Positions 36 through 23,472 of a DNA stretch of 64,000 nucleotides are shown here, in pieces. The first letter of the stretch is position 1; every line of letters starts with the position of its first letter. Source of the DNA: Halobacteriovorax sp. JY17 (GTDB lineage: Bacteria; Bdellovibrionota; Bacteriovoracia; Bacteriovoracales; Bacteriovoracaceae); NCBI RefSeq assembly GCF_002753895.1, contig NZ_NJER01000003.1:62001-126000 (forward strand). Reading direction: 5' to 3'. Below the pieces are notes generated by a model. That model worked only from the letters and a program-made list of their open reading frames with translations, did no database searches and had not been told where the DNA came from. The position numbers and the translations under genes are program-made.

Positions 36-1019
36 ATGCCTACTCCTCAAGATGGTGAAACATTTACTTTTACTATATCTGAGGAGGATAAAGAGAACTT
101 TAAGCGTCTTGATCAATTCCTCTCTGAAAAGTTAGTAGATCAAAGTCGATCTTTTATAAAAATGCTCTATGAAAAAGGGCATATCACTTCTGAAAACTCC
201 AAGAAGAAAATTGAATTAAAGAAATTTCCAGAGGTAGGAACAGTCATTAATGTTCTAGTTCCTCCTCCAGCACCTGCTGATGCTCAGCCCGAAAATATCC
301 CTCTTGATATTCTCTTTGAAGATGAGCACCTTATCATTGTAAATAAAGTTGCCGGAATGGTTGTTCACCCTGCTCCTGGTAATTACACAGGAACCTTGGT
401 CAACGCTATTCTCTTTCACTGCAAAGACTTAAAAGGAGTTGGAGATCAGAGAAGGCCGGGTATTGTTCATCGTCTCGATAAGGGAACTTCAGGTGTAATG
501 GTGGTTGCCAAGAATCAAAAATGCCATGAGGGCCTTGTTGAACTCTTTAGCAGCCATGACATCGAAAGAAAGTATGAATGTATTGCTATGGGAAAGTCTT
601 TTCCATCAGGCGGAAAACTCGAATCAAATATAGGAAGGCATCCTCAAAATAGATTGAAAATGTCAATCGATTCTAAAGTTGGTAAGCACGCTTTAACCCA
701 CTACCGCGTCTTATGTCAGTATGACAAAATTGCTCATGTTGAATTGAAACTTGAAACAGGAAGAACACATCAAATTAGAGTTCACTTAAGTCAACTACTG
801 CATAGACCTATTCTCTGTGACTCTCTCTACGGAAATCCAAAAGAGCATCTGCAAAGAGTTGGACCTGACTTAGCTAAAATAATTGGAAAGTATGAATATC
901 CCTTCTTACATGCAAAAGAATTGGGATTTATTCACCCTATTACAAAAGAGGAATTGAACTTCCAATCTCCTCCTCCAAAAATATTTCAAGAGATACTTCA
1001 TCACTTAAATGGAAATTAA
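36..1019 (+). CDS. rluD: RluA/RluD-family 23S rRNA pseudouridine synthase
   Basis: Converts specific uridines of large-subunit rRNA (helix 69 for RluD itself) to pseudouridine in the cytoplasm. An S4 RNA-binding domain covers about residues 23-75. The catalytic domain begins near residue 88 and carries the family motif RPGIVHRLDKGTSG, with catalytic Asp148. The later block ETGRTHQIRVHL is also typical. The length of 327 aa is normal. The ATG at 36 follows an AAGGAT ribosome binding site. The next gene, pgeF, overlaps the 3' end by 11 bp, and this rluD-pgeF pairing is also found in E. coli, which supports RluD over RluA or RluC. Exact target sites cannot be read from the sequence. Confidence 0.9.
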   Translation: MPTPQDGETFTFTISEEDKENFKRLDQFLSEKLVDQSRSFIKMLYEKGHITSENSKKKIELKKFPEVGTVINVLVPPPAPADAQPENIPLDILFEDEHLIIVNKVAGMVVHPAPGNYTGTLVNAILFHCKDLKGVGDQRRPGIVHRLDKGTSGVMVVAKNQKCHEGLVELFSSHDIERKYECIAMGKSFPSGGKLESNIGRHPQNRLKMSIDSKVGKHALTHYRVLCQYDKIAHVELKLETGRTHQIRVHLSQLLHRPILCDSLYGNPKEHLQRVGPDLAKIIGKYEYPFLHAKELGFIHPITKEELNFQSPPPKIFQEILHHLNGN

Positions 1020-1605
1020 AATGATTCTTCCTCAGTACTCATATGAAACATTGGGATATGTATTTGAAGTCTGGGACCACCGACCAAAGATAGAAGGTCT
1101 CATTAGTGTTGATCAAGTCCACGGCAGCGCCATAAAAAATTTTCAAGAGATAGCCATAGACAGCGAGGCCGATGGAATTATATCCCTTGATGGCTCTCCA
1201 ATGGCAATTAAAACAGCGGACTGTCTTCCCGTGGCCTTCATTTCTAAAAGTGGTACTGCATTAATACATGCTGGCTGGAAAGGTCTTGAAAATAAAATCC
1301 TTTTAAGCGACGACATAAGAGACTTAAATCCAATAAAAATTCTTATTGGACCACACATAAGAGCAGGTAGCTATGAAGTCTCGTTAGAGTTTACAAAGAA
1401 TTTTCCAAATTCTAACAATTTTAAAGAGATTAACGGTAGAATACTATTTGATATGTCTAAAGAAGCTATAAATCAACTCGAAGAGTTCTACCCTCTGGCC
1501 GAAATAGTTGACTGCGAAATAGATACTTTTAACGATTCTCGTTTTTATAGTTATAGAAATGGTGACCTAGAAAAAAGAAATTGGAATATCTTAAGAAAAA
1601 TATAG
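1009..1605 (+). CDS. pgeF: PgeF/YfiH-family (polyphenol oxidase/LACC1-like) protein
   Basis: Member of the YfiH/PgeF/LACC1 family. E. coli PgeF removes misincorporated L-serine-containing muropeptide precursors, and other members show purine nucleoside phosphorylase activity. The conserved His-Cys-His metal site is visible as DQVHGS (His38), TADCLP (Cys72) and IHAGW (His87), followed by IGPHI and a C-terminal FYSYR block. At 198 aa it is shorter than the usual roughly 240 aa, because the N-terminal segment before the VHG motif is compact. The start at 1009 overlaps rluD; an in-frame ATG at 1021 is an alternative. Translation is probably coupled to rluD. The precise substrate here is unknown. 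Confidence 0.85.
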   Translation: MEIKMILPQYSYETLGYVFEVWDHRPKIEGLISVDQVHGSAIKNFQEIAIDSEADGIISLDGSPMAIKTADCLPVAFISKSGTALIHAGWKGLENKILLSDDIRDLNPIKILIGPHIRAGSYEVSLEFTKNFPNSNNFKEINGRILFDMSKEAINQLEEFYPLAEIVDCEIDTFNDSRFYSYRNGDLEKRNWNILRKI

Positions 1606-1613
1606 GAGAACAA

Positions 1614-2762
1614 ATGGAAAAGAAATCATTCTACAAAAATGGGCCCTTCAATGCTCATATTATTTTAGGGGCCATCGCTATTGCAATGATTGGTGTATCA
1701 ATTTACTTAACGAATCACTACTTCGGAGTAAAGTTTCCAACTAGTATTACTGATGCTTCAGGTATGTGTAATATAAACTCTTTCTTCAACTGTGATACGA
1801 CAACCAACTCTCCGGCCTCTAATATTGCAGGTGTTCCTATTTCCATATTTGGAGTTTTAATCGGCGCATTCTTAATGGCAGGTTTTCTATTTAAAAATGA
1901 AGAAGTCGAAGGAACCAATCACCTTATTTTACTTGTTAATGGTGTTGGATGTTTAATTCTCTTTTTATACTCATTAATTGCTCTTGGTGGACTATGCCCA
2001 ATGTGTACTGTCTATTACCTACTTTCTTGGGCAGCACTATTTATTTTCCATAAGTATAGCTCACACAGGTCTATAGGCATGAAGCCAATTGTGCTCTATT
2101 TTCTAATTACTCTCGCTACTTCAGGAACAACTTGGTTTTCAGTCAATCAGAAAGAAAATCAAATCAATCAAATAGCTTCATCTCTACTTGATCAATACTG
2201 GAAACTTCCTAATCTTGGAAAACCTGCAATTGATTCAGAGTTTAGAATCGCCTCTGCAAGCGACAACTTTACTGATGCTCCACTGCAGATCACATTCTTT
2301 TCAGACTTCCAGTGCCCCGCTTGTAAGGCCCTTTCTGATAATTCTCATGCTATCGCTTCAAAATATGCAGGTAAAATAAATATTCAATACATGTATTACC
2401 CTTTAGATCATAATTGTAACCCAAAGATGCAAAGACCACTTCATACGCTTGCCTGCCAAGCCGCCTACTTAACCACTTGCTTACCAAGTAAGTTTGGAAA
2501 AGTTCACGATGATATTTTCAAAAATCAAGCAACTCTCACTCAGAAATGGCTGAATGATTATGCTAAAAAAGAAAATGTATCCGAGTGTATGCAATCACCT
2601 GAAACAAAGAAGAAAGTACAAGAAATTATTTCAAGAGCTGAACCTTTCAATATCAACTCAACTCCAACTATGTTAGTAAATGGAGTTAAGATTGAAGGAG
2701 TACTTCCTCTTGATCAACTCTATATCATCCTTGATGATATTTTAGCGAAAGCAACAAAGTAA
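1614..2762 (+). CDS. VKOR-DsbA fusion, periplasmic disulfide oxidase
   Basis: Single-chain disulfide-forming system: an integral-membrane vitamin K epoxide reductase domain fused to a DsbA-like thioredoxin domain. It would pass electrons from folding periplasmic proteins to quinone. Residues about 15-180 hold four to five hydrophobic helices with the loop cysteines Cys52 and Cys60 and the redox pair CPMC (128-131). The C-terminal domain has the active site CPAC (234-237) in FFSDFQCPAC and a cis-Pro loop (NSTPTML). I choose ATG 1614 because an AGGAG site at 1604-1608 precedes it with ideal spacing; an upstream ATG at 1581 lies inside pgeF. Such a fusion replaces separate DsbA and DsbB. Confidence 0.9.
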   Translation: MEKKSFYKNGPFNAHIILGAIAIAMIGVSIYLTNHYFGVKFPTSITDASGMCNINSFFNCDTTTNSPASNIAGVPISIFGVLIGAFLMAGFLFKNEEVEGTNHLILLVNGVGCLILFLYSLIALGGLCPMCTVYYLLSWAALFIFHKYSSHRSIGMKPIVLYFLITLATSGTTWFSVNQKENQINQIASSLLDQYWKLPNLGKPAIDSEFRIASASDNFTDAPLQITFFSDFQCPACKALSDNSHAIASKYAGKINIQYMYYPLDHNCNPKMQRPLHTLACQAAYLTTCLPSKFGKVHDDIFKNQATLTQKWLNDYAKKENVSECMQSPETKKKVQEIISRAEPFNINSTPTMLVNGVKIEGVLPLDQLYIILDDILAKATK

Positions 2763-3674: not shown

Positions 3675-5072
3675 ATGAGAAATGCGATTAAATTTTTAAT
3701 TACACTAATGGCCCTAGGCCTCTTTAATATAACTCACGCCAAAGTGTTCTCGGCCAACGTCTTGGCGCCTAATCTTGTTGGGCAAACATCTGATGCCGAA
3801 AAAAATAGAGATCAGTGGGCAAAGTTCGAGAGCGATCTAGAAAAAATGAAAGAACTTGGTATCCAATCTATCTCTACTCATATTTGGTGGTCTCAAGTTG
3901 AAGTTCAAGATAATCAATTTGACTGGAGTTACTACAAGAAACTTTCTCAAATAATAATAGATAAAGAAATGAAGTGGTCCCCTATTATCTCATTTAATAG
4001 CTGCCGCGATGAAAAAGAAAATTGCAATATTGAATTACCAAAATGGGTTTGGAATAAGTATAAGAATAATGGAAGCGTAGAAGATATAAACGATTTAAAA
4101 TTTATTTCTGATGACGGTACTATTTCTAATGAATTCATTTCATTTTGGGCCACGGACCTTGTCGCCACTGAATACAAAGAATTTATTCAATCCTTCGCTG
4201 ACAATTTCAACAATCTAAACTCAAATATTTTAGAAATTATAATTTCACTTGGGCCAAGCGGAGAGCTTCGCTACCCAATTAACAACCTTGATGAGAGTAA
4301 GCCTCAAGCTTATTCAAACCTTGCAAAAGAATCATTTAGATCATTTATTAAATCTAAATATAAAACAATTGATAATGTAAATGCTGCTTGGGAAGTTGAG
4401 TTAGAAGCAATTAAAGATATTCAACCACCTATGAGTCAGCACTTCTTTTCCACCCAGGAGTATAAGAGTTCTTACGGAAAAGATTTCTATGATTGGTATA
4501 ATACTTCTCTAGTTGAGCACGGTGTAATAATTTTAACAACTGCTATAAGAGTTCTAAATAGTGATAACTCTTCTTTTATAAATACTCCAATAGGAGCTGT
4601 TATTCCTGGATCTCTTTGGTCTTCAAATCCAGAAGCAAAGAGAGTCACGGAGTTAAATGCAGGCCTTATAAGATCAAGTGACGATATCTGGGGAGCAGGA
4701 AAATTGGCTTCTGGTTATGAGCATATCGTCGCAGGATTAAAAGAAGCCGCAACATTAACTAAGTTTGGTTTCTTTAACTTGCATTTAACAGCAATTGAAA
4801 TGACTTCAGTAAAAGCTGAAAAAGGTGACGAAGAATCTACTCCAAATCTAGCTTTTGAAATCTCCAAACTCGCCAAAGAATCTAACCTTGGAATTCTAGG
4901 ACAAAATCAATCTGTAAACGTTCTGGGTTCGAATAAGGCATGGGATAATATTTGGAATGCTATTCAAAATGCAAACTATACAGGTCTCACAATTAAGACC
5001 ATGAGCGATATTTCAGAAAACCCTTTCGCTTATGATTTCTACAAGTGGATTATTGAAAATATGCACGAGTAA
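3675..5072 (+). CDS. secreted GH14 beta-amylase-like glycoside hydrolase
   Basis: Signal peptide of about 22 residues (cleavage after THA). The remaining TIM barrel shows beta-amylase (GH14) hallmarks: THIWWSQVE near residue 70, an ELPKWVW block near 120, GPSGELRYP with the putative acid Glu197, and LTAIEM with the putative base Glu375. A block GSLWSS..AKRVTELNAG parallels the family's HWWY..HAAELTAG. GH14 enzymes release maltose from the non-reducing ends of alpha-1,4-glucans. The flexible loop before ELPKW, GGNVGD-like in plant enzymes, is replaced by CRDEKENC, and the preceding His is Asn108. Starch specificity is therefore uncertain. Length 465 aa is close to normal. It is preceded by a 100-bp gap that probably holds its promoter. 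Confidence 0.8.
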   Translation: MRNAIKFLITLMALGLFNITHAKVFSANVLAPNLVGQTSDAEKNRDQWAKFESDLEKMKELGIQSISTHIWWSQVEVQDNQFDWSYYKKLSQIIIDKEMKWSPIISFNSCRDEKENCNIELPKWVWNKYKNNGSVEDINDLKFISDDGTISNEFISFWATDLVATEYKEFIQSFADNFNNLNSNILEIIISLGPSGELRYPINNLDESKPQAYSNLAKESFRSFIKSKYKTIDNVNAAWEVELEAIKDIQPPMSQHFFSTQEYKSSYGKDFYDWYNTSLVEHGVIILTTAIRVLNSDNSSFINTPIGAVIPGSLWSSNPEAKRVTELNAGLIRSSDDIWGAGKLASGYEHIVAGLKEAATLTKFGFFNLHLTAIEMTSVKAEKGDEESTPNLAFEISKLAKESNLGILGQNQSVNVLGSNKAWDNIWNAIQNANYTGLTIKTMSDISENPFAYDFYKWIIENMHE

Positions 5073-5132
5073 TTCTCTCTAGAAAGGCAATTTTTTCCTC
5101 ATTAAAATAAAAACCCATCCGAATAGTTAGGT

Positions 5133-5498
5133 ATGAGAAAAACATACTTAACTATTATCCTAGTTCTTATATCAAGTAATATCCTCGCTAAGAGTGAATC
5201 GTTACCTGTTCATAGCTACATAGATACTGAGTTTGAAGCTATGTTTGAACTTAAAGTTTTTGAGTATCCAAAAATTATTCTAGATTGTCAGAGCTTTTTT
5301 CATCAATTAGTTGTCTATAAAGATATATCTGCTGGAGATGAAGTTAAAAGAAGTTTCCATCTAGACTTTGAGCAGTGTTACGCTGCCCATGAATTTCTCT
5401 ACCAATCACAAGATGAGCGAAGACCTGTTTGCTTGACCTTAGATTTTGATGAAGGAGCAATTGCTTTTTCTAATGCTCCAATAGAAGAGTGTAAGTAA
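5133..5498 (+). CDS. small secreted protein of unknown function
   Basis: A 121-aa protein with a clear N-terminal signal peptide (MRKTYL, then a hydrophobic stretch ending ILA-KSE). The mature part is acidic and carries four cysteines, which could form two disulfides in the periplasm. I recognise no family. It lies 60 bp after the beta-amylase-like gene on the same strand, so co-transcription is possible, and it converges with the hydrolase gene that ends at 5506. The ribosome binding site before ATG 5133 is weak. Confidence 0.65.
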   Translation: MRKTYLTIILVLISSNILAKSESLPVHSYIDTEFEAMFELKVFEYPKIILDCQSFFHQLVVYKDISAGDEVKRSFHLDFEQCYAAHEFLYQSQDERRPVCLTLDFDEGAIAFSNAPIEECK

Positions 5499-5505
5499 AT
5501 ATATT

Positions 5506-6483
5506 CTACTTCAAAAGATCCATTGCATTTGGATGAGACATCATCTTAGCTAGAAAACTCTTCATTAATTCTGTTTGCTCATTCTCTTTAGATTTCTGAG
5601 TTAGTATACTTGAAATTTCATTGTGTATTGTCTCTCTAACTTCAGAAGAGTCATCTATCTCCGTATGCGACTCACGCCTTAGGTTATTAATAACTTCAGT
5701 CTTTGAATTATCTCTCGCTATATTTGGCCCGTCATTAAAGAAAGCGTCTTTATCACCAATGTAATTTATATTCTTTTTTACGTTCTTTGGAATAATATCA
5801 TTATCAAAGCCCACAGAATCTAATGTTACAAGTAAATCAACTTTTCTAAATCCATTAGCAAAAGTATTTAATTTATTGGAGATATTCACAACAGCATCAC
5901 CACCAAGAGAGTGACCGATCAAAACAACAGGTTCATTCTTAGGTGTACTTTTAATTTCAGAAATTATTTTCTCTTCATCTTTCCAACTAAAATGCTCTGC
6001 CCCTTCTAACTCTTTCGCCATGGCAGCAAGCCCCTCATCATCAGAGCTTATTCCAGCAAGATGTAATCCACTTACGAAAATAACTCTCGCCCCATCTTTT
6101 ATTCCTAATTCTTCTTTTGGAGCGACAACTTCTTTTACTTCCTCTACGACTTTACTATCAGGAAGAATTGACGACACTAGATCCACCGCCGTTCCAAGGC
6201 CAGGCATTTCAAATGCATTCTTTGCAACACTAGCTGCATCGGCCAACAAATGCTTTGAAGCCCCCTTCAACTCTCTTCCATTTTGCTTGAGATTCTCTTT
6301 CACCTTATCTTTAAGATCTACTTTCTTATCTTTTGAGGCCTCAGACAACTCAACCTTATCTGCAACTTCTCCTAGCTTTGGATCCACAACTTCCTTTGAA
6401 AGGAGTTTACCTACTTGCTTTCCTCTATTTTGAAGATAATCATGGTGAGATTTGTAGTGGCGAACGCCAGTTTCAGTTTTCAT
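5506..6483 (-). CDS. alpha/beta-hydrolase (lipase-like) with helical N-terminal region
   Basis: Predicted serine hydrolase of 325 aa. The nucleophile elbow GHSLGG places Ser182. LLVTLDSVG (Asp212) and RRESHTE (His263) complete a plausible triad. VIFVSGLH at about residue 135 fits the first beta strand and oxyanion region. Residues 1-125 are a charged, lysine-rich, probably helical extension. There is no signal peptide. I chose ATG 6483 (MKTETG); an in-frame ATG at 6519 would add 12 residues. Substrate unknown; lipids or esters are possible. Monocistronic and convergent with the small secreted gene. Confidence 0.7.
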   Translation of the reverse strand: MKTETGVRHYKSHHDYLQNRGKQVGKLLSKEVVDPKLGEVADKVELSEASKDKKVDLKDKVKENLKQNGRELKGASKHLLADAASVAKNAFEMPGLGTAVDLVSSILPDSKVVEEVKEVVAPKEELGIKDGARVIFVSGLHLAGISSDDEGLAAMAKELEGAEHFSWKDEEKIISEIKSTPKNEPVVLIGHSLGGDAVVNISNKLNTFANGFRKVDLLVTLDSVGFDNDIIPKNVKKNINYIGDKDAFFNDGPNIARDNSKTEVINNLRRESHTEIDDSSEVRETIHNEISSILTQKSKENEQTELMKSFLAKMMSHPNAMDLLK

Positions 6484-15697: not shown

Positions 15698-16348
15698 ATG
15701 GCAAAGAAGAAAGTCGCGAAGAAAGCGACAAAGAAAGTCGCTAAGAAAACTGCTAAAAAAGTAGCAAAGAAAGCAACTAAGAAAGTCGCAAAGAAAACTG
15801 CTAAAAAAGTAGCGAAGAAAGCGACGAAGAAAGTCGCTAAGAAAACTGCTAAAAAAGTAGCGAAGAAAGCGACGAAGAAAGTCGCTAAGAAAACTGCTAA
15901 AGAAGTAGCGAAGAAAGCGACGAAGAAGGCAGCTACAACTCCTTCAAAGAAAGCAACTGGCTCAAAGAAACTTACTAAAGAAGAGGCCATTGAAAAATAT
16001 AAGAGAGAGCATCAATTACAGTTAAATGATGATCTTAAAGAGTCAGAAGAAGTCTTCATACAAGAAGATAAAGAAGTTTTGACTGTAGAAATACCAGGCG
16101 TTAAAGAAGACCTCGCTCCAGAAATCGTTGCAGAAATTGAAGAGAAGCCATTAAATAATACTGACTCTCTTGATGACTACAACCCAGATGATGAGAAAGA
16201 CGATGAAGTTGCAAACTTCGGTTATGGATGGGGATACAATGACGAATTTGATAAGCCTGAAGATGAGGATGAAATAAACCCTTTTGATGAAGATGAACTC
16301 TACGCTAAGGGTTTAGATAGGGATGACGACAAGAAAGACGAATTATAA
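15698..16348 (+). CDS. histone H1-like lysine/alanine repeat protein with acidic tail
   Basis: A 216-aa protein in two opposite halves. Residues 5-76 are nine 8-residue repeats alternating KVAKKATK and KVAKKTAK (the last is EVAKKATK), like bacterial H1-like proteins such as AlgP and chlamydial Hc2, which coat DNA or RNA. Residues from about 110 are strongly acidic (runs of D and E, ending DDDKKDEL). The acidic half could be self-neutralising or contact other basic proteins. Start ATG 15698 follows AAGGA. Monocistronic with a strong terminator. A nucleoid role is inferred from composition only. Confidence 0.8.
   Translation: MAKKKVAKKATKKVAKKTAKKVAKKATKKVAKKTAKKVAKKATKKVAKKTAKKVAKKATKKVAKKTAKEVAKKATKKAATTPSKKATGSKKLTKEEAIEKYKREHQLQLNDDLKESEEVFIQEDKEVLTVEIPGVKEDLAPEIVAEIEEKPLNNTDSLDDYNPDDEKDDEVANFGYGWGYNDEFDKPEDEDEINPFDEDELYAKGLDRDDDKKDEL
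15710..15925 (+). repeat. in-gene tandem repeat, 9 x 24 bp (as 48-bp pairs)
   Basis: Nine 24-bp units encode KVAKK(AT/TA)K alternately, so the higher-order period is 48 bp. Several 48-bp units are identical or differ at single third-codon positions, which makes the array prone to copy-number change in multiples that keep the frame. Confidence 0.9.
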
Positions 16349-21089: not shown

Positions 21090-21228
21090 CTACCTAACCT
21101 CCTGTAATTATTATTTAATTTAATAGTCTACCTAATATAAAGCAAAACGTAGGCCAATTCAGGTAAGTTTTGACATTAGAGGGCCAGTTTGAAAGAATTT
21201 ATAGAACCTATTTTTCATGGATGAACAA

Positions 21229-22014
21229 ATGGCTAAAATCTTACTCACAGTAGCAGCTGTCTTAATCTCTCTATCGAGCCAGGCTTCCTTTAGCCTCAGT
21301 ACCCAAAACCTCTGGCACTACACAACTGATTACGAAACAAGACTTCAAAACCTGAATACTTCCTTTAATACAAATCAAGCCGATATTATGAACTTCCAAG
21401 AAGCATGGAAGAGTATTGGAGGTAAGAGCTTATATAATGAGATTCTAAATAAAGGTGAATTCCAAAGTCATTTTGTAAGAACAAACAATACAGTTATTAT
21501 TAAAGAAGGCCTCGCTACAATTTCAAAATTTCCACAAGATGATAAGAAGTTTAATTTTAAGCTTCCACACAGTAAGGTCTTCAGAAGAAGAACAATGCTT
21601 GTAACAAAAGTAAAACTACCATCACAGAAAGAAGTATATATTGCAAATATTCACTTAAGTCCTTTTGAAGAAGGTAGAAGTGATAGAGATGATCAGCTAC
21701 TTTTTGTTTTAAAAACTTTAAAGAATGACTTCTCTCATCTTCCTATTATTATCACAGGAGACTTTAACCAAGAAGAAGATAAGAGTTTCTTTACTCCTCT
21801 TATTGCAGCAGGATTTAGTTCGTCGCTAGAAGGGCTATGTACTTATTGTGGAAATGAGAACCCATATGCAAAATCTGAATATGTTAGTAAGTTAGATTAT
21901 ATCTTTTACCAAAAATCATTCTTTGATTTGATAGATGCTAGAAGAATATTTGTAAACAACCCCATTTCTGATCACTATGGACTAAGAGTAGAACTTAAGG
22001 ATTTGAGAGATTAA
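21229..22014 (+). CDS. secreted endonuclease/exonuclease/phosphatase-fold protein
   Basis: About 261 aa with a signal peptide (MAKILLTVAAVLISLSSQA). The EEP fold is shown by IMNFQEAW (metal-binding Glu), ANIHLSPFE, TGDFNQEEDKSF (Asp/Asn pair), KLDYIFY and the final SDHYG (catalytic His). Family members include DNase I-like nucleases, sphingomyelinases and phosphatases. Export and lineage suggest digestion of prey or environmental DNA or lipids, but the substrate is not defined by sequence. The ORF opens at ATG 21217, but 21229 has a GGA site and a cleaner signal peptide. The 3' end overlaps the convergent gene by 20 bp. Confidence 0.8.
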   Translation: MAKILLTVAAVLISLSSQASFSLSTQNLWHYTTDYETRLQNLNTSFNTNQADIMNFQEAWKSIGGKSLYNEILNKGEFQSHFVRTNNTVIIKEGLATISKFPQDDKKFNFKLPHSKVFRRRTMLVTKVKLPSQKEVYIANIHLSPFEEGRSDRDDQLLFVLKTLKNDFSHLPIIITGDFNQEEDKSFFTPLIAAGFSSSLEGLCTYCGNENPYAKSEYVSKLDYIFYQKSFFDLIDARRIFVNNPISDHYGLRVELKDLRD

Positions 22015-23302
22015 CGATAAAGTTACCGTACTGATCTCCATCCATAATTTCCTTATCGACACCAATAACTGTAACTTTGCGTCCTAAGATTTTAGACCAT
22101 TTTCTATTAAACTCTTTAATCGCCTCAAACTCACTCTCCATCCATCTAGACTTGAAATAAGACTCATAACCTTTCCAATTGTAATTAGACTCTCTCATGG
22201 AAACAGCAAGGGCCGGGGAATAGATTTTAAAATCGATATCACTTTTCACAAGCCCTTTAACATTAAAATGTTTTCCTGATCTCTTATTCGGATTATTTGA
22301 ATAGAAAGTCGTAGAAGTTCCATCAATGATAACGTTTCCTGACTCAATTTTTTCAGATTTAAGAGCTAGTGCCAATTCATCTTTAGCCTGCTCAAAAGAG
22401 CTTTCTGTAAAACCAAGAGGAACCCTTTTATTCACCATTAACTCAATTTCATTCTCAGTAATACCTTCCTTAAAGGCAGGTCCGTATCCGAACTCTCTCC
22501 AACGCTTAACATTTTCGAATTGTCTAATTTTTACATCTAATTCGTTAGCAAGACTCCCCATTACCTTGGCCTTGCTATTTTCTGCAATTAATTGCTGAAA
22601 CTTACTATACTTCTTTCTTTGAGAAATAAGCTCCTCAGTCATCTCCTCTAACTCAGAGTCAGTAATATGATCTTTATAAAGTATCTTCTTAACATCAGTT
22701 ACATCTTCTCCTGTTTGGTAGAGATGCTTTCTTCTAATTTCTATTAAATGTTTTATTTTAGAATAATCTATATCGTAGAGTTCAATTGAAATTGGTATAT
22801 CTTCAATTTTACTATTTTCAGCAAACTCTCTAAGAGCAAATAATCTTCCGTTTCCATCAAAGACAATATAGTTTCCATCATCTGTTTTAACGGCCCTCAT
22901 TAACATTCTAGACTTAATTGTTTGCTCTTGAATGTCAGTCGTTATAACTTCTGGTACTCCATTCTTTCTTACAAAATCACTTATATTAGCGGCCCTTGCC
23001 TTGGTTTTCTCTAGAGACGCTCCCCTATTAATTGGATGAATCGCTTTTAATTTAGAAAGAGGAATATCAATTACTGTTTTACCCCTATTTTGAGCAACTA
23101 ACTTATATCTTAAAAGTATTGCTACTAGGTTTGACCTATCAAGATGCTGAATCTCTGAAAATTTCTGAGTTAAATATTTTAAGCCTGAAAGATTTGCAAG
23201 TTCCGCATTTACTTGATCTGTCTCTATAAAAACAGCACTTACTTGCTTACAAGACAGTTCTGAATCCTTCACCGTTAAAGATGCTGGCAGCCTTCTTTTC
23301 AC
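21995..23302 (-). CDS. ParB/Srx-like domain protein, frameshifted from its lipoprotein signal
   Basis: A 435-codon frame opening at GTG 23302. Residues about 60-180 look like a ParB/sulfiredoxin-type domain: IPLSKLKAIHPINRG, then DGNYIVFDGNGRLFALREF. A helical, charged region follows (about 190-300), then an unassigned C-terminal part. The frame continues upstream of GTG into CSTTSSV, and that Cys would be a lipobox cysteine. A 13-bp triplication at 23329-23367 puts the leader out of frame. As it stands either a GTG-initiated cytosolic form is made or the gene is off. With one repeat unit it would be an intact lipoprotein. Confidence 0.7.
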   Translation of the reverse strand: MKRRLPASLTVKDSELSCKQVSAVFIETDQVNAELANLSGLKYLTQKFSEIQHLDRSNLVAILLRYKLVAQNRGKTVIDIPLSKLKAIHPINRGASLEKTKARAANISDFVRKNGVPEVITTDIQEQTIKSRMLMRAVKTDDGNYIVFDGNGRLFALREFAENSKIEDIPISIELYDIDYSKIKHLIEIRRKHLYQTGEDVTDVKKILYKDHITDSELEEMTEELISQRKKYSKFQQLIAENSKAKVMGSLANELDVKIRQFENVKRWREFGYGPAFKEGITENEIELMVNKRVPLGFTESSFEQAKDELALALKSEKIESGNVIIDGTSTTFYSNNPNKRSGKHFNVKGLVKSDIDFKIYSPALAVSMRESNYNWKGYESYFKSRWMESEFEAIKEFNRKWSKILGRKVTVIGVDKEIMDGDQYGNFIVNLSNP

Positions 23303-23328
23303 AGAGCTCGTTGTAGAGCACGAAGAAA

Positions 23329-23367
23329 TAGTTAGAAGTAATAGTTAGAAGTAATAGTTAGAAGTAA
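23329..23367 (-). repeat. 3 x 13-bp tandem repeat inside a lipoprotein signal sequence
   Basis: Three exact copies of TAGTTAGAAGTAA (23329-23341, 23342-23354, 23355-23367), with a further TAG. Two extra units add 26 bp, not a multiple of three, and bring a TAA stop into the leader frame. Only a single unit keeps the leader joined to the downstream frame. Confidence 0.95.
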
Positions 23368-23400
23368 TAGTAGTGAAGTAAAAATGTGAGCTATTCTCAT
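23332..23400 (-). CDS. truncated lipoprotein leader peptide (22 codons), start of the broken gene
   Basis: ATG at 23400 behind a GTGAG site encodes MRIAHIFTSLLLLLTITS and then runs into a TAA created by the third repeat unit. Removing two repeat units in silico gives a signal ending LLLLTISSC, a good lipobox, continuing in frame into the ParB-like protein. It is best viewed as the true 5' end of that gene. Confidence 0.75.
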   Translation of the reverse strand: MRIAHIFTSLLLLLTITSNYYF

Positions 23401-23472
23401 AACTCACTTATCGGAAATTGCTTGATTTTACATTAGAAAAAAGGTCTCCCCACTAATCATAAAATCAATAAG

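Follow-up and report, generated by a model that had tools for sequence, protein, structure and literature searches.

A gene of Halobacteriovorax sp. JY17 carries a short tandem repeat within the sequence for a lipoprotein signal peptide, which raises the question of whether the repeat is a switch that turns a surface lipoprotein on and off or a mutation that has put its export signal out of frame. The window considered here is the whole 64,000-nucleotide stretch of contig NZ_NJER01000003.1 that was analyzed. In an earlier note, made from the letters alone, the gene had been described as ParB-like and as a candidate for phase variation. What had been observed was borne out, but the interpretation held only in part, and phase variation as stated was not supported. 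On the best reading, the locus carries a mutation that could revert; it is not a demonstrated case of an evolved switch.

Direct counting on the minus strand located three exact copies of the 13-bp unit TTACTTCTAACTA (TAGTTAGAAGTAA on the plus strand) at positions 23329 to 23341, 23342 to 23354, and 23355 to 23367, within the signal sequence as had been claimed, and perfect 13-bp periodicity extended over 45 bp (23327 to 23371). Of the span originally given (23329 to 23400), only the part up to 23367 is repeat; position 23400 belongs to the start codon. When up to one mismatch was allowed, the unit was absent from the rest of the window (0.23 matches expected by chance), and three such matches were reached in no shuffle. 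The 39-bp triplet occurred once in the window, versus 0.00 times expected, and the doubled unit had a single site in the whole 3.47-Mb genome. In a census of 444 kb sampled from the same genome, window included, this was the sole perfect array with a period of at least 8 bp and at least 2.8 copies; shuffled windows contained no perfect array with a period of 10 to 16 bp and at least 2.8 copies. The array is therefore not a product of chance. The next longest perfect array in the sample was an intergenic 7-bp triplet.

Two repeats were noted in passing. At positions 1938 to 1958 of locus L033, three intergenic copies of the 7-bp unit TAAAGAA lie upstream of an open reading frame (ORF) with a flagellin-like start (MGMRINTNVS...), and a change in their number could shift promoter spacing. 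A 48-bp repeat at 15706 to 15927 of the window (4.5 copies, 94% match) has an in-frame period, and its units are rich in AAG and GCN, as in a lysine/alanine-rich protein.

The consequences of the array for translation follow from frame arithmetic. Read from the ATG at 23398 to 23400 (minus strand), the present three-unit frame is MRIAHIFTSLLLLLTITSNYYF, which ends after 22 codons at a TAA in the third unit (23332 to 23334). The lipobox codons I-S-S-C (23318 to 23329, minus strand), recognized from the sequence and from their counterparts in congeners, are at present out of frame with this ATG, and no in-frame lipoprotein signal is encoded by the three-unit sequence of the window. With one unit, the frame becomes MRIAHIFTSLLLLLTISSCSTTSS..., which includes the lipobox ISSC and joins the 435-codon ORF that encodes the body of the lipoprotein (21995 to 23302, minus strand; ORF calling and comparison with genome G001, the source of the nearest ortholog), for a total of 459 codons. 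The stop in the third unit and the open one-unit frame had both been noted, and both stood. The proposal that every change of one unit toggles the frame failed. Among copy numbers from zero to seven, only one unit gave an open frame; translation would stop after 20 codons with no unit, after 46 with two, and always after 22 with three or more, because the stop sits inside the array. Thus, although the copy number of the repeat sets the reading frame, as in a contingency gene, there is no cycling frame switch, and the single ON state carries no perfect tandem repeat. Programmed frameshifting, considered separately, appeared unlikely by inspection; a −1 shift would be confined to a space of about 10 nt, from the TAA that closes the ORF frame in unit 2 to the TAA that closes the ATG frame in unit 3, and no slippery heptamer is seen there.

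Comparison with related genomes, which had been suggested as a check on the number of units, indicated which state came first. Orthologs turned up in three of the four congeners when relatives were searched (74, 57, and 55% identity), one of them from Halobacteriovorax marinus isolate 36_234_T64. All three have the ATG at the same position, and the alignment gives them a 26-bp gap that coincides with the array, leaving one unit-equivalent. Their lipoprotein signals (MRIVHLLVTFLLFLQFTSC, MGIAKQLILLTFILLLNAC, and MNLTKSLLLSIFISIVAAC) have intact counterparts of the lipobox (FTSC, LNAC, and AAC), and a basic/hydrophobic N terminus followed by a lipobox cysteine, of the signal peptidase II type, is present in all three as well as in the one-unit frame of the window. 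The ancestral protein was therefore an exported lipoprotein. The alignment indicates that the window carries the derived state and that the ancestral gene had one unit-equivalent. The assertion that the triplication puts the signal peptide out of frame is supported by the intact signals of these congeners, which have 26 bp fewer. None of the three has the array, so the conservation of the repeat at its locus that marks a contingency gene was not found, and they are too divergent in sequence to serve as alternative copy-number states.

The sequence upstream also supports the ATG as the start. CCGATAA, a −10 box of the FliA (sigma-28) type, lies at 23408 to 23414 (minus strand), exactly 7 nt before the ATG in four of four orthologs, and 17 nt before this box is a −35-like CTAAT (23432 to 23436, minus strand) where the congeners have CTAAG or TTAAG at 16 to 17 nt. 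In Bdellovibrio bacteriovorus, TTAAG-N16-CCGATA, which matches FliA, is found in 66% of mapped attack-phase promoters (PMC3627812), and by sequence an arrangement of this kind precedes the start of the lipoprotein gene. TAAA-N15-17-CCGATAA occurs 32 times in the JY17 genome versus 8 times in the reversed control. On these motifs, the lipoprotein gene is probably one of the attack-phase genes under FliA and would have an almost leaderless mRNA. Genome-wide, FliA-type TAAA/TAAG-N15-18-CCGATAA was enriched over reversed controls (32 places and 13 places), which marks candidate attack-phase genes. A 9-bp hairpin with a GAGA loop surrounds the start codon (23386 to 23407, minus strand; −11.7 kcal/mol). 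The same core is found in G001 (locus L002, 2846 to 2891, minus strand), where it has 18 bp, −22.9 kcal/mol, and a z score of −10.4; it is absent in G002 and G003. A role of the hairpin in translational control is conceivable; alternatively, it may be a dyad in the DNA that overlaps the promoter.

The name ParB-like did not survive. Sequence searches with the lipoprotein in Pfam, NCBIfam, PHROGs, and PDB returned no ParB match, and a search of the genome with PF02195 matched three other loci and not this one. Profile-profile comparison with the ParB/sulfiredoxin-like family was negative as well, with an hhalign probability of 0.1%. Structure predictions from one and from two sequences gave models too poor to judge the fold by (pLDDT 35 and 38).

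The neighborhood bears on whether the protein is needed. An Exo_endo_phos-family gene with an N-terminal signal-like sequence, assigned by family match and synteny, converges on the lipoprotein gene (21217 to 22014, plus strand), and the 3′ ends of the two genes overlap tail-to-tail. The pair was found in four Halobacteriovorax-type genomes. The same convergent pair is present in G150, from another genus (locus L014, 299 to 892, plus strand, and 889 to 1665, minus strand), with a lipoprotein relative of 197 amino acids that lacks the lipobox and the C-terminal half. In G004, both genes are missing from the otherwise syntenic locus L022, between rodA (4888 to 6000; RodA 94% identical) and an 85-amino-acid ORF (4511 to 4768), and no full-length copy of either was found elsewhere in that genome. 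The pair was lost together there and so is dispensable, and loss of function has to be weighed seriously against phase variation.

The 435-codon ORF is without signs of decay. Compared with G001, pN was 0.17 and pS was 0.76 (saturated), giving a pN/pS ratio of about 0.23. Tajima counts did not indicate acceleration of the window lineage (25 versus 28 and 17 versus 22), and there are no nonsense codons, which bounds the age of the expansion to about 0.05 substitutions per site if the gene has evolved neutrally. The identity of the three units gives a corresponding bound of about 0.12 substitutions per site, again if neutral, and both are far below the synonymous divergence from G001. The lack of decay or faster evolution thus argues for a recent expansion. 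These data suggest either a recent expansion or a gene that is still selected in another form, alternatives that sequence alone cannot separate.

We consider it most probable (about 0.62) that the array is a recent, mechanically revertible loss-of-export mutation in a dispensable, genus-conserved lipoprotein gene that is probably under FliA attack-phase control. In the single-unit arrangement, the flanks share ACTATT, 6 bp of microhomology spaced 13 bp apart, which may have seeded the first duplication through slippage, and a second copy would have made a third easy. The growth from one ancestral unit to three added 26 bp, so that translation from the conserved ATG now ends after 22 codons and leaves the lipobox unreached. 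In the array as it stands, direct-repeat matches reach 32 bp at period 13 and 19 bp at period 26, and slippage over them could bring it back to a single unit and so recover the protein. The closest process described is the reversible microhomology-mediated tandem duplication with a frameshift in the ssp1 gene of fission yeast (review, PMC13207564); there, too, microhomology seeds a short duplication that places a premature stop in the coding region and can revert by loss of a copy, but the array in JY17 is bacterial, has three copies rather than two, and is known from its sequence alone. At the hit locus bd0108 of Bdellovibrio, 10-bp direct repeats flank a 42-bp stretch that is recurrently deleted (PMC3818213). 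This is likewise a repeat-mediated change in the gene for an exported protein of a related predator, although that gene is unrelated, and what host-independent growth selects there is an in-frame deletion rather than an expansion. In Mycobacterium tuberculosis, frameshift indels and frameshift scars (PMC8339072) resemble the present case in that an indel silences a gene and a second could reverse the effect, but those were found across thousands of isolates and the window represents one genome only. The reading of a revertible mutation is weakened by the unbroken, unaccelerated ORF, which would also be expected if the protein still functioned in a subpopulation of ON cells or by way of the GTG start.

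The strongest rival, unlikely as a separate explanation, overlaps with that reading: permanent gene loss may be under way, with the array as the first lesion in a lipoprotein gene that is no longer needed and reversion irrelevant. The clean loss of the gene and its convergent partner from G004 is what would be expected, as is the divergence of the −35-like element from its congener forms. Against this, the 435 codons contain no second lesion, the lineage is not accelerated, and the partner gene is intact.

Evolved phase variation, in which gain and loss of units switch an attack-phase surface lipoprotein ON and OFF and are kept by selection, ranks next and seems doubtful. Perfect repeats inside a signal sequence, an intact and unaccelerated gene body, and direct repeats of 19 and 32 bp that allow contraction all accord with it, and switching by tandem-repeat copy number is known in other bacteria, as at promoter repeats of M. 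tuberculosis (PMC12817950). Like those and other slipped-strand systems, the JY17 array has a unit whose copy number, by its position, decides expression. It differs in having a long unit, few copies, and one ON number, in not being conserved, and in being seen in one genome. With an ON state free of perfect tandem repeats, each passage from ON to OFF would need a new duplication; moreover, three congeners lack the array, the 444 kb sampled gave no sign of a habit of such arrays, and only one copy-number state was observed. Switching through contraction of the array would be possible in principle. The fuller proposal, that a FliA-controlled attack-phase lipoprotein made phase variable by the 13-bp array, and ON with a single unit, would let a predator population keep a minority with an altered surface during prey attack, is about as doubtful.

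It is quite improbable that the array is an assembly or sequencing error and that the true genome has one unit. The congeners do have one unit-equivalent, and the one-unit frame would be open, but a 45-bp array is shorter than ordinary short reads and so would be spanned by one read, two exact 13-bp insertions rarely arise from error modes, and the genome is 100% complete in 5 contigs. The least likely proposal is that a cytosolic form without a signal peptide is still made from the GTG at 23302, which is the first in-frame start of an intact ORF and, at about 29 nt past the stop, could in principle be reached by termination-reinitiation, but it is missing from the nearest ortholog, in G001, has no Shine-Dalgarno-like purine run before it, would yield a cytosolic form of a lipoprotein predicted to be exported in all three congeners, and competes with an ATG that adjoins the conserved promoter box.

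The comparisons show that a conserved surface-type lipoprotein of a marine predatory bacterium has been put out of frame by expansion of a 13-bp unit. Even if this is a plain mutation, it illustrates how a defective export signal can be masked by automatic annotation: read from GTG 23302, the 435-codon ORF seems intact, and it is comparison that reveals where translation truly starts and that the signal peptide has been lost. The analysis also points to a conserved linked pair, a predicted lipoprotein of no known family and a secreted-type Exo_endo_phos protein, lost jointly in one species. The open-access literature searched contained no article dealing with phase variation in Halobacteriovorax and none with phase variation in Bdellovibrio as its main subject. 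If true, ON/OFF expression of a lipoprotein in the attack phase would offer a case, open to testing, in which a predator varies its own surface.
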